Assembly (NCBI RefSeq): GCF_002847505.1
Contig: NZ_MXAV01000033.1
Location: 62,001-126,000 of the forward strand
From: Acidithiobacillus marinus
Lineage (GTDB): Bacteria; Pseudomonadota; Gammaproteobacteria; Acidithiobacillales; Acidithiobacillaceae
Direction: 5' to 3'
DNA: 64,000 nucleotides
The notes under the pieces are model-generated. The model was not told the origin of the DNA. It made no database searches and saw only the letters and a program-made list of their open reading frames with translations. Position 1 is the stretch's first letter. Each line of letters begins with the position of its first letter. Below are positions 42,378 through 46,643 of this stretch, one piece after another. The position numbers and the translations under genes are program-made.

Positions 42378-43045
42378 TTGAATTTATCAATGTTACCAAG
42401 CACTATCCCGGTCGTCATCATGTGCTCCGCGAGCTGAATCTCAAGCTCCCGACCGGACAGATGGCTTTGCTGACCGGTCCTTCCGGAGCCGGCAAAAGCA
42501 CCTTGCTGAAATTGCTGCTGCGTCTGGAAGATGTGAGCCACGGTACGTTGATGGTCAATGGTGTGGATGTGTCGACCCTGAAAAAACGCCACATACCTGC
42601 TTATCGGCGGCGCATCGGCGTGGTTTTTCAGGACCACAAATTGTTGATGGATCGTGATGTATTCAGCAATGTCGCCCTGACCCTGCAGGTCAGTGGCATG
42701 CATGCCAAGCTGATTCAAAACCGGGTACGTGCCGCCCTGGAAAAAGTCGGCCTGGGAAATCGGATTCACAACATGCCGGCAACCCTGTCGGGAGGCGAAC
42801 AGCAGCGGGTGGGCATTGCCCGGGCTATTGTCCATACCCCGGAAATTCTTTTGGCAGACGAGCCTACCGGCAATCTCGACGGTTCCTTGAGCACGGAAAT
42901 TCTCGATATGTTCCGGGACTTTCATCAACATGGCACCACCGTTCTGGTGGCAACCCATGACCAGACCCAGGTCGAGCGTCTGGGGCTGCCGGTATTTCAT
43001 CTGGAGCAAGGCATGCTGCAGAATTCTCAGGAGAAGTCCGCGTGA
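42374..43045 (+). CDS. ftsE: Cell division ATP-binding protein FtsE
   Basis: The ABC-type ATPase of the FtsEX complex at the divisome, which controls peptidoglycan hydrolases. The 223 aa carry Walker [12 protein letters not shown], a Q-loop (VFQDHKLL), the signature [12 protein letters not shown] and Walker [13 protein letters not shown]. The start overlaps ftsY by 4 nt and the stop overlaps ftsX by 4 nt (GTGA). Confidence 0.97.
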
Positions 43046-43950
43046 GTGCCATACATATTCGTCTGGAAGCCGCCCAAAACGCCCTGCACACCCTGGTCAA
43101 GCAGCCACTGGCGACGCTGATGACCATTTTCGCCCTGGCCATTGTGCTGGCGCTTCCCGTCGGTCTTTTTGCCGCCTTGAATAATCTCCAGCAATTGCTG
43201 GGACAGTGGCGGGACCAGGCGCAGATTTCCCTGTTTCTGCATCAGGACGCCACCGAGCAGGATGTCCAGCAACTTCAGAAACAGCTCCAGAGCAGTACCG
43301 GGGTCGTCAATGTCCGCTATGTGGGTAAGTCTGCAGCCCTCCAGGAATTTGAGAAAAATGCCGGCATGACCGCAGCCATCAAGATTCTCGGTGAAAATCC
43401 CCTGCCGGCTTCATTTATTGTCGAGTTGAATCCCTTATCCGAAAGCCCCGCTGCCCTGCAGGCGCAGATCCAGTCCTGGGCACGTTTGCCTGGCGTTGCC
43501 AGCGCCCAATCGGATCTGCATTGGGTGGCGCGCCTCCAGGCAATTCTCGCCCTGGGGAAAACCGCCGTCTGGATTCTCGCCATCATGTTGGCCGTTGGCG
43601 CCATTCTGGTCATGGGCAATACTATTCGTCTGCATATAGCCCAGCGCCGCGATGAAATTGATATTGCCAGTTTGGTGGGGGCCACTCGCGCTTTCATTCG
43701 CCGACCTTTTCTTTATCAGGGGCTGATTCAGGGCGCCATCGCTGGTATTTTAGCCTGGATCATCATTGCCATTACCATCGCGATTTTGCAGGGACCGGTA
43801 GATCGTCTGGCTACCCTCTACGGCACGCGCTTTGAACTTTTGGGACTGACAGGCTTGGAAGGATTGATTCTGATTGCCATCAGCGCCATCCTCGGCTGGC
43901 TGGGCTCCCGACTTGCCGTAGGCCAACATCTCGACCATACTTTTTCTTAA
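43042..43950 (+). CDS. ftsX: Cell division protein FtsX
   Basis: The membrane partner of FtsE, 302 aa. It has one N-terminal span (around residues 30-55), a periplasmic domain (about 60-170) and three C-terminal spans, the last ending about ten residues before the stop. The GTG start overlaps the ftsE stop. A short inverted repeat (AAAGCC/GGCTTT) lies just after the gene and may attenuate transcription before rpoH. Confidence 0.95.
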   Translation: MSAIHIRLEAAQNALHTLVKQPLATLMTIFALAIVLALPVGLFAALNNLQQLLGQWRDQAQISLFLHQDATEQDVQQLQKQLQSSTGVVNVRYVGKSAALQEFEKNAGMTAAIKILGENPLPASFIVELNPLSESPAALQAQIQSWARLPGVASAQSDLHWVARLQAILALGKTAVWILAIMLAVGAILVMGNTIRLHIAQRRDEIDIASLVGATRAFIRRPFLYQGLIQGAIAGILAWIIIAITIAILQGPVDRLATLYGTRFELLGLTGLEGLILIAISAILGWLGSRLAVGQHLDHTFS

Positions 43951-43964
43951 AAAGGCAGAAAGCC

Positions 43965-43993
43965 CTTGAAAAGGCTTTACGTGATCCCCAACT
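43965..43993 (+). promoter_or_regulatory. Sigma-32-like promoter upstream of rpoH
   Basis: CTTGAA (43965-43970) and CCCCAACT (43986-43993) are separated by 15 nt, close to the sigma-32 consensus CTTGAA/CCCCATNT. The start of transcription would be about 95 nt before the rpoH ATG. The -35 lies within the loop of a small inverted repeat after ftsX. Confidence 0.5.
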
Positions 43994-44087
43994 GTTCATT
44001 AAGTAGTGTCTGCGTACTGTTTTGCGGCTTGGAACTTACGACAGATATTGAGAGTCCAAGGTATCATGATTGTCATGAGGACAAAAT

Positions 44088-44948
44088 ATGAATGAACTTG
44101 CTATAGCCAGTAGGGATTTGGTCAGCACCGACGGGCTGGCGGCATACCTGCGTTTCGTCAATGCCCAGCCGATGCTGGAGCCTGAAGAAGAGCGGGATCT
44201 GGCTCTGCGACTGCGCGATCATGATGATGTCGAAGCAGCCAAATCTCTGGTGCTCAGTCACCTGCGTTTTGTGGTGCGCATTGCTCGGGGATATCGGGGC
44301 TACGGCCTTCAGGAAGCAGACCTGATTCAGGAGGGTAATATTGGCCTGATGAAGGCGGTCAAACGCTATGATCCAGATCATGGTGTGCGTCTGGTGTCTT
44401 TTGCCGTGCATTGGGTCAAGGCAGAAATACATGAGTTCATTTTGCGTAACTGGCGGATTGTCAAAGTGGCGACCACCAAAGCCCAGCGCAAGCTTTTCTT
44501 TAACCTGCGTTCCAGTCGTACTCACACCGGCTGGCTGAGTGGGGAAGAAAGTGCTGCCATTGCCGAAGACTTGGGTGTGACTCAGGAACAGGTCCTGGAA
44601 ATGGAAGGTCGTATGACCGGTCACGATTACTCCCTGAACATGGAGCCCGATGAAGAGAGCGGAAATTCCCGAGTAATGGAACTGGCCGATCCCGCGGATT
44701 CAACGGTAGATCAACTGTTCGCCCGGGATTGGGATGACCATCAGCATGCCGCCTTGCAGCGTGCGTTGTCAGCCCTGCCTCAGCGGGATCGTTATATCAT
44801 CGAAAATCGCTGGCTCAGTGAGGAACCCAAGACCTTGCAGGTGCTCGGCGATGAGCTCGGTGTTTCTGCCGAACGCATCCGCCAGCTGGAAAAAAGCAGC
44901 ATGAACAAGTTGCGCCAGAAAATGCTGGCGCTGAGTTCGGCGGCCTGA
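44088..44948 (+). CDS. rpoH: RNA polymerase sigma-32 (heat-shock) factor
   Basis: Directs RNA polymerase to heat-shock promoters. The 286 aa show region 2 (EEERDLALRLRDHDD, LRFVVRIARGYRGYGLQEADLIQEGNIG split over 2.1-2.2), the RpoH box AQRKLFFNLR and region 4 with EELG-like DELGVSAERIRQLEKSS. The gene follows ftsX as in E. coli but after a 137-nt gap with its own candidate promoter. The RNA leader was not modelled for thermosensor folding. Confidence 0.97.
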   Translation: MNELAIASRDLVSTDGLAAYLRFVNAQPMLEPEEERDLALRLRDHDDVEAAKSLVLSHLRFVVRIARGYRGYGLQEADLIQEGNIGLMKAVKRYDPDHGVRLVSFAVHWVKAEIHEFILRNWRIVKVATTKAQRKLFFNLRSSRTHTGWLSGEESAAIAEDLGVTQEQVLEMEGRMTGHDYSLNMEPDEESGNSRVMELADPADSTVDQLFARDWDDHQHAALQRALSALPQRDRYIIENRWLSEEPKTLQVLGDELGVSAERIRQLEKSSMNKLRQKMLALSSAA

Positions 44949-44952
44949 GCGG

Positions 44953-45276
44953 ATGCTGCTGTTTCATATTGATGACGCAGGACGGTGGCCGAATCTCCTG
45001 GCCAATGTGCGTAACGCGGCGGCGGCGGATCCGGGTCGGGCTTTGCGCGTCATTGCCAACGGCCAGTCCCCGGTTTCTCTGTGGGCGCATGGACACTGGC
45101 GGCGGGAAATCGAAGAACGGATTACCGCTGGTTTAACTGTGGATTTCTGTGAAAACAGTCTGCGTAACATGGGCCTGGATCCCGCTACCCGACCAGCAGG
45201 GAGTCATCTGGTGCCTGCCGGTGTCATTGCCATTGCCGAAGCTCAGGCAGCAGGGGCCTTGTATATCAAGCCCTGA
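44953..45276 (+). CDS. DsrE/YchN-like small sulfur-relay-type protein
   Basis: A 107-aa protein with the DsrE fold pattern: ALRVIANGQSPVSLW near residue 35, a conserved Cys in VDFCENSLRNMG and the ending AAGALYIKP. DsrE-like proteins include sulfur carriers; this one keeps a single Cys in the typical position. It starts 4 nt after rpoH and is probably co-transcribed, which is unusual and could place it under heat-shock control. The function is inferred only from the family. Confidence 0.78.
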   Translation: MLLFHIDDAGRWPNLLANVRNAAAADPGRALRVIANGQSPVSLWAHGHWRREIEERITAGLTVDFCENSLRNMGLDPATRPAGSHLVPAGVIAIAEAQAAGALYIKP

Positions 45277-45293
45277 TTGTTCAATCAGGGCTT
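45268..45293. terminator. Strong hairpin between the DsrE-like gene and hslU, possible bidirectional terminator
   Basis: AAGCCCTGATTG pairs perfectly with CAATCAGGGCTT around TT. It contains the stop codon of the DsrE-like gene and lies between the converging genes. The T-run is short on both strands. Confidence 0.65.
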
Positions 45294-45314
45294 TCATCCC
45301 CCCAAATTTGCACA

Positions 45315-46643
45315 CTATAAAATGTAGCGGGACAGATCTTCGTCCTGGGCCAGATCTTGCAGGCGGCCATCCACATAGGCTGCATTGACTTCCACGTTGG
45401 GTTGGCCGAGGTCCGGGGCGGTAAATGCCACTTCTTCCAGCAGCCTTTCCATGATGGTGTGGAGGCGGCGGGCACCGATATTTTCGACCCTTTCATTGAC
45501 CTGCTGGGCAATTTCGGCAATACGCTGCACACCGTCATCGGTGAATTGCAGGGTGACTCCATCACTGGCGAGGAGGGCGCTGTACTGGCGCACCAGAGCG
45601 TTTTCCGGTTCCTGCAGAATCCTCACCAGATCCGCTGCACTCAGGGCGTCCAGCTCGACGCGAATGGGCAGACGTCCCTGCAGTTCCGGAATGAGGTCCG
45701 AGGGCTTGCTGAGGTGAAAGGCACCGGAAGCGATAAAGAGAATATGATCGGTTTTCACCACCCCATAGCGGGTGCTGACATTGGAGCCTTCCACCAGCGG
45801 CAATAAATCGCGCTGAACCCCTTCCCGGGAAATGTCCGTGCCCTGCTGACTGCCGGAGCGCACGGCGACCTTGTCGATTTCATCAATGAACACAATCCCT
45901 CCCGACTGGACCCGCTCCAAAGCCAGGGCACGGACTTCTTCTTCATTGACCAGTTTGGCGGCCTCGTCGTCAGTGAGCAGACGCTGAGCTTCGGCCACCG
46001 GCACTTTGCGGGTATTGGTCTTGCCTTGGGACATGTTGGAAAACATATCGCGCAGCTGATTGGTCATTTCTTCCATGCCGGCGGGCGCCATGATCTCCAC
46101 GCCAGCCTTGGGAGCCGCCACTTCGATCTCGATTTCCTGCTGGTCGAGTTTACCTTCCCGGAGCATCTTGCGGAATTTCTGGCGGGTACCTTCATCGTTG
46201 CGTGGCACGGAACTATCCCGGGGACCCGGAATCAGGGCATCGAGGATGCGTTCTTCGGCCATTTCCTCAGCCCGTTGGCGCATGGCGGTCTGGCGTTCAC
46301 TGCGGATCATGTCTACGGCGGTTTCGGTCAGATCGCGGATGATGGACTCCACATCCTTGCCCACATAACCGACTTCCGTAAATTTGGTAGCTTCCACCTT
46401 GATGAAAGGCGCATTGGCCAGCTGCGCCAGACGCCGGGCAATTTCGGTTTTGCCCACTCCCGTCGGTCCAATCATCAGAATGTTCTTGGGAGTGATTTCC
46501 TGATGCAGGGGAGCCGGGACCTGGGCACGTCGCCAGCGGTTGCGCAGGGCAATAGCCACCGCACGCTTGGCCTCGGACTGGCCGATGATGTACTTGTCCA
46601 GTTCCTGGACGATTTCGCGGGGGGTCATTTCAGACATGCTCAT
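45315..46643 (-). CDS. hslU: ATP-dependent protease ATPase subunit HslU
   Basis: AAA+ unfoldase of the HslUV protease. The 442 aa include [15 protein letters not shown], Walker [16 protein letters not shown], an intermediate domain (about residues 110-230), Walker [13 protein letters not shown] and the C-terminal tail needed to dock on HslV, ending LSRYIL as in the family. Its start overlaps the hslV stop by 4 nt. It is the last gene of the dapF-to-hslU run. Confidence 0.98.

Follow-up and report, generated by a model that had tools for sequence, protein, structure and literature searches.

The 137-nt gap between ftsX and rpoH in Acidithiobacillus marinus appears to carry a pair of stress promoters in tandem, the first read by sigma-32 and the second, nearer to rpoH, by sigma-E, an arrangement to which we give a probability of about 75% on the strength of the sequence. 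Self-activation of rpoH by sigma-32 is the best reading we can suggest. The gap lies within a 64,000-nucleotide stretch of DNA (the window) from a 2.9-Mb, Acidithiobacillus-type genome, and the gene order along it is ftsE, ftsX, rpoH, and a small gene, followed by hslU on the opposite strand. RpoH matches TIGR02392 with 395.7 bits in a profile search (cut-off, 323.1), and A. montserratensis has the closest named RpoH (97%). The features of the locus are as follows.

43042..43950, plus strand: ftsX (TIGR00439), the neighbor upstream of rpoH
43959..43978, no strand assigned: AAAGCC/GGCTTT inverted repeat, with arms at 43959-43964 and 43973-43978 around the CTTGAA -35
43965..43993, plus strand: candidate sigma-32-type promoter, with -35 CTTGAA at 43965-43970, N15, and -10 CCCCAACT at 43986-43993
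44031..44059, plus strand: candidate sigma-E-type promoter, with -35 GGAACTT at 44031-44037, N16, and -10 GTCCAA at 44054-44059
44088..44948, plus strand: rpoH, encoding sigma-32 (TIGR02392), with its ATG at 44088
44953..45276, plus strand: small gene, weakly DsrE-like, 4 nt after rpoH

A preliminary description of this DNA had placed CTTGAA-15 nt-CCCCAACT about 95 nt before rpoH and judged it a better sigma-32 match than chance would give, and both points hold. The site ends 94 bases before the rpoH ATG and agrees with the consensus CTTGAA/CCCCAT, taken as printed in PMC545781, at 11/12 positions, the single mismatch being in the -10, which reads CCCCAA. No second site scoring at least 11/12 occurs in the window at spacings of 13 to 17 on either strand, and a best score of at least 11 was reached in 0.4% of 520 dinucleotide shuffles (253-nt upstream regions from the 26 family loci). 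Genome-wide, the strict pattern CTTGAAN{14,16}NCCCAT, from which the rpoH site is excluded by its CCCCAA, has four matches. Three of these have N15 and lie upstream of grpE-dnaK, clpB, and an Hsp20 gene; the fourth has N14 and is inside an open frame. As the reversed control has five matches, the pattern is not enriched across the genome, and the evidence lies in the places of the matches and not in their number. The N15 spacing at rpoH is the same as at the grpE-dnaK, clpB, and Hsp20 sites, and at clpB it is found in all 16 loci of the genus.

Conservation within the family also points to a functional -10. CTTGAA occurs 95 to 150 nt before rpoH in 19/26 family loci, and in those 19 the match to CCCCAT at exactly N15 averages 4.95/6 (at least 5 in 14 loci and at least 4 in 17), while each of the other spacings between 8 and 24 gives a match of at least 5/6 in 0 or 1 of the 19. 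There is a side peak at N17 (at least 4/6 in 9/19), and two of the 19 score just 1 and 3 of 6 at N15. Mean identity among the 19 is 71% for the -10 and 35% for the remaining spacer; identity in the -35 is no evidence, since the loci were selected for CTTGAA. Moreover, CTTGAA overlaps the ftsX stop codon in nine of them (by eye), so that coding may help to keep it. Eight of the 26 family loci score 12/12. The element is absent in seven (L008 to L011, L014, L016, and L018), which include A. ferriphilus (L010), A. ferrivorans DSM 22755 (L011), and A. ferruginosus (L014). On the RpoH tree, its presence requires three changes, against a mean of 9.1 with shuffled labels, which may represent one gain and two losses; related rows in such comparisons are not independent. 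Scores of 12/12 were also seen in three genomes elsewhere in the class (L146, L147, and L189), two of them with CIRCE. L146 (G135), from another family, has a sigma-32-type site at 12/12 together with a sigma-E-type site at 12/13, and it possesses hrcA but no CIRCE at rpoH; it is a possible independent case.

The sigma-E-type site at 44031-44059, absent from the preliminary description, is nearer to rpoH than the sigma-32-type site and more widely kept. It scores 12/13 at N16 against the sigma-E consensus (GGAACTT, 15-17 nt, GTCTAA-like), with E. coli rpoH as a control. Scores of at least 10/13 are found in 24/26 family loci, compared with ~5% of shuffles; the other two family loci score 9, which is the shuffle level, and two relatives from the same order score 11 and 10. 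The pattern GGAACTTN{15,17}GTCYAA matches once in the 2.9-Mb genome, at rpoH, with one match for its reversed control as well, and a looser pattern again matches once, at rpoH, versus 15 times for the reversed control. The genome contains rpoE (TIGR02939, 338 bits), an adjoining RseA-like gene (RseA_N, 25.7 bits, just above the cut-off of 24), and a fragment of a Do-family protease gene, standing in a row, as well as hrcA. No sigma-E-type motif precedes rpoE in the 13 loci read, in which starts were set by a rough rule that did not recognize rpoE in two further loci, and this makes sigma-E a tentative assignment for 44031-44059. Nor does the motif appear at other expected sigma-E targets, as the strict patterns match only rpoH genome-wide.

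If both sites are used as proposed, sigma-32 would read 43965-43993, and active sigma-32 would thereby raise rpoH transcription in a positive loop. Chaperone control of the sigma-32 protein, which is established in E. coli, would hold this loop in check. Sigma-E (RpoE) would read 44031-44059 and couple the heat-shock response to envelope stress, as at E. coli rpoH. Most likely, the inputs of the two promoters would add, with sigma-E serving envelope stress and sigma-32 serving self-activation. Starts are expected near 44000 from the upstream site and near 44066 from the downstream one; these starts, the sigma factor given to each site, and a response to heat are all predictions from the DNA. 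The positive feedback suggested in the preliminary description thus gains a conserved site, which the E. coli K-12 scan lacks, and acquires a second promoter that had been missed.

It is also possible, if unlikely, that the sigma-E-type promoter alone is used and that the sigma-32-like site is weak or a decayed relic. The sigma-E type is more broadly distributed, reaching a score of at least 10 in 24/26 family loci and the two order relatives, versus the sigma-32 -35 in 19/26, and the sigma-32-like -10 at A. marinus rpoH does carry a mismatch. A relic, however, would hardly keep its -10 at a fixed distance when the spacer sequence drifts, nor score in full in eight family loci. Considerably less probable is that neither site is a promoter, in which case rpoH would be transcribed from a housekeeping promoter or by readthrough out of ftsX, and chance or neutral conservation would account for the motifs. 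Immediately downstream of ftsX, the terminator scan found no terminator-like site having its T tract on the plus strand, and there is a sigma-70-like match at 44038-44067, but this match is at chance level (9/12; one found in 43000-46000 where 1.2 are expected), and relatives do not conserve its second hexamer (by eye). Neutral conservation is at odds with the finding that the sigma-32 and sigma-E motifs outlast their spacers.

The AAAGCC/GGCTTT repeat enclosing the -35 after ftsX is present at 43959-43978, as had been described, and its existence is what favors a terminator coupled to re-initiation. We find this link between termination and initiation scarcely credible, because the T tract that the terminator scan finds at the repeat is confined to the minus strand and because the repeat is not conserved: CTTGAA is flanked by perfect inverted 5- or 6-base arms in 4/19 loci, and only two of the four are alike. 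The repeat is probably incidental to the two stress promoters that we favor. A search of 43000-45400 for an RNA thermosensor returned no Rfam family at gathering score.

We also compared rpoH upstream regions across the class, using 102 other genomes, each from another family, with 253 nt taken around and before the rpoH match. These were the 26 class genomes initially listed, without G033, G036, G043, and G048, and a wider sample consisting of the first 80 listed rows (handles G058-G172), from 80 different families. The CIRCE operator pattern, TTAGCACTC-N9-GAGTGCTAA, occurs with at most 2 mismatches in 77/102 of these regions (for example, L030, L101, L113, and L272) and with at most 3 in 83, and it occurs within 4 mismatches in none of 612 shuffles. 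In 47/76 loci, GGAACTT (at least 5/7) begins precisely 16 nt ahead of CIRCE, and no other offset between -45 and -7 is seen in more than 7; this register puts the sigma-E -10 inside the CIRCE left arm. Among the 57 CIRCE loci with a sigma-E score of at least 10, the -10 has this position in 43; the letters of CIRCE raise the -10 score in such composite loci and leave the -35 score unaffected. Sigma-E scores of at least 10 are found in 68/102 class loci, against ~7% of shuffles, and in only 5/19 of those lacking CIRCE. Four loci (L269, L273, L277, and L282), three of them, L273 included, titled Pseudomonas sp., show GGAACTT followed by GCAGTGCTAG. This is perhaps a decayed CIRCE; read as a whole CIRCE, these loci have 6 to 8 mismatches, which is near chance level.

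In a search for hrcA covering 80 of the 130 genomes, it was found in 36/38 of those with CIRCE (at most 3 mismatches) at rpoH, in two of the 36 as fragments only, versus 6/19 of those without (Fisher p 9e-7); E. coli was not among the matching control genomes. In the family, hrcA is present in 21/21 genomes searched (in one as two pieces under the cut-off) and in 2/2 order genomes, with no CIRCE within 4 mismatches at rpoH in any of 26 family or 2 order loci. The lineage has therefore lost, or never had, the operator and not the repressor. HrcA control of A. marinus rpoH was accordingly rejected, there being no CIRCE before the gene. HrcA seems still to be in use at groES, where a TTGACA-type promoter with a CIRCE-type repeat stands upstream in 15 of the 16 loci L031 to L046 (by eye), the 16th being cut inside the gene.

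These distributions are consistent with an ancestral class rpoH in which a sigma-E-type -10 lay inside CIRCE (GGAACTT-N9-TTAGCACTCTAA-N6-GAGTGCTAA) and HrcA controlled whether envelope stress could reach the heat-shock response. In the Acidithiobacillus lineage, the operator would then have been lost and hrcA kept, and most of the family would have gained sigma-32 feedback. We are evenly divided on this history. The HrcA gate may thus have been exchanged for sigma-32 feedback, to judge from where each is found. If the composite works, cytosolic HrcA and envelope sigma-E converge on one rpoH promoter in many families of the class, and if the exchange is true, Acidithiobacillus illustrates how self-activation can take the place of the HrcA gate.

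The textbook account of rpoH regulation derives from E. coli. In the 250 nt upstream of E. coli K-12 rpoH, the same scan finds TGAACTT-N15-GTCTGA, which scores 11/13 to the sigma-E form and presumably corresponds to the promoter named P3, so that E. coli resembles A. marinus in having a sigma-E-type site before rpoH. It finds no CIRCE there and no sigma-32-type site (best, 8/12), in agreement with the earlier statement that E. coli rpoH is not driven by sigma-32. For organisms used in biomining, the two candidate sites offer a concrete promoter map for heat-shock control.

Parts of this picture are already known, namely sigma-32 autoregulation in Caulobacter, sigma-E control in E. coli, and CIRCE predicted at rpoH in one Geobacter. 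In Caulobacter, rpoH is read from a sigma-32 promoter in a positive loop, according to a title in the reference list of PMC5745026, and this resembles what we propose for A. marinus; Caulobacter is, however, an alphaproteobacterium, and its case is experimental by that title while ours comes from sequence alone. PMC545781 predicts an HrcA/CIRCE site before rpoH in Geobacter sulfurreducens and sigma-32-like candidates before rpoH in two Desulfovibrio. G. sulfurreducens is thus like A. marinus in that a heat-shock regulator is predicted to act on rpoH transcription, and it differs in having CIRCE at rpoH, which the Acidithiobacillus family lacks (0/26). Within Acidithiobacillia, E. coli sigma-factor matrices have been run over genomes, and the rpoH site is not among the results shown in the available part of PMC12194929. 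For A. ferrooxidans, PMC3252397 predicts sigma-32 promoters upstream of three sHSP genes, and the RT-PCR values for A. thiooxidans rpoH under pH stress in PMC10487802 (2.09 +/- 4.46 at pH 1.5, 30 min) are too noisy to use. The two-promoter combination and the class-wide sigma-E/CIRCE composite were not found in the literature searched, which did not include Permina and Gelfand 2003, a study of the heat-shock regulons of beta-, gamma-, and epsilonproteobacteria cited in PMC545781; CIRCE at rpoH in gammaproteobacteria may already be in print there.

The small gene 4 nt downstream of rpoH was previously called DsrE-like and predicted to join the rpoH regulon. Its position is as given, and its assignment to DsrE is weak (E=0.15 in Pfam; 12.7 bits, below the cut-off of 22.7). 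Cotranscription with rpoH is likely, and membership in the regulon plausible: a homologue stands after rpoH in 23/26 family loci, one of them truncated at the end of its contig, and in none of four other loci checked. Inspection by eye showed an inverted repeat with a T run, AGCCCTGATTGTTCAATCAGGGCTTT, at 45269-45294, where the small gene and hslU converge. It is absent from the terminator-scan output and is likely a terminator shared by the two genes.
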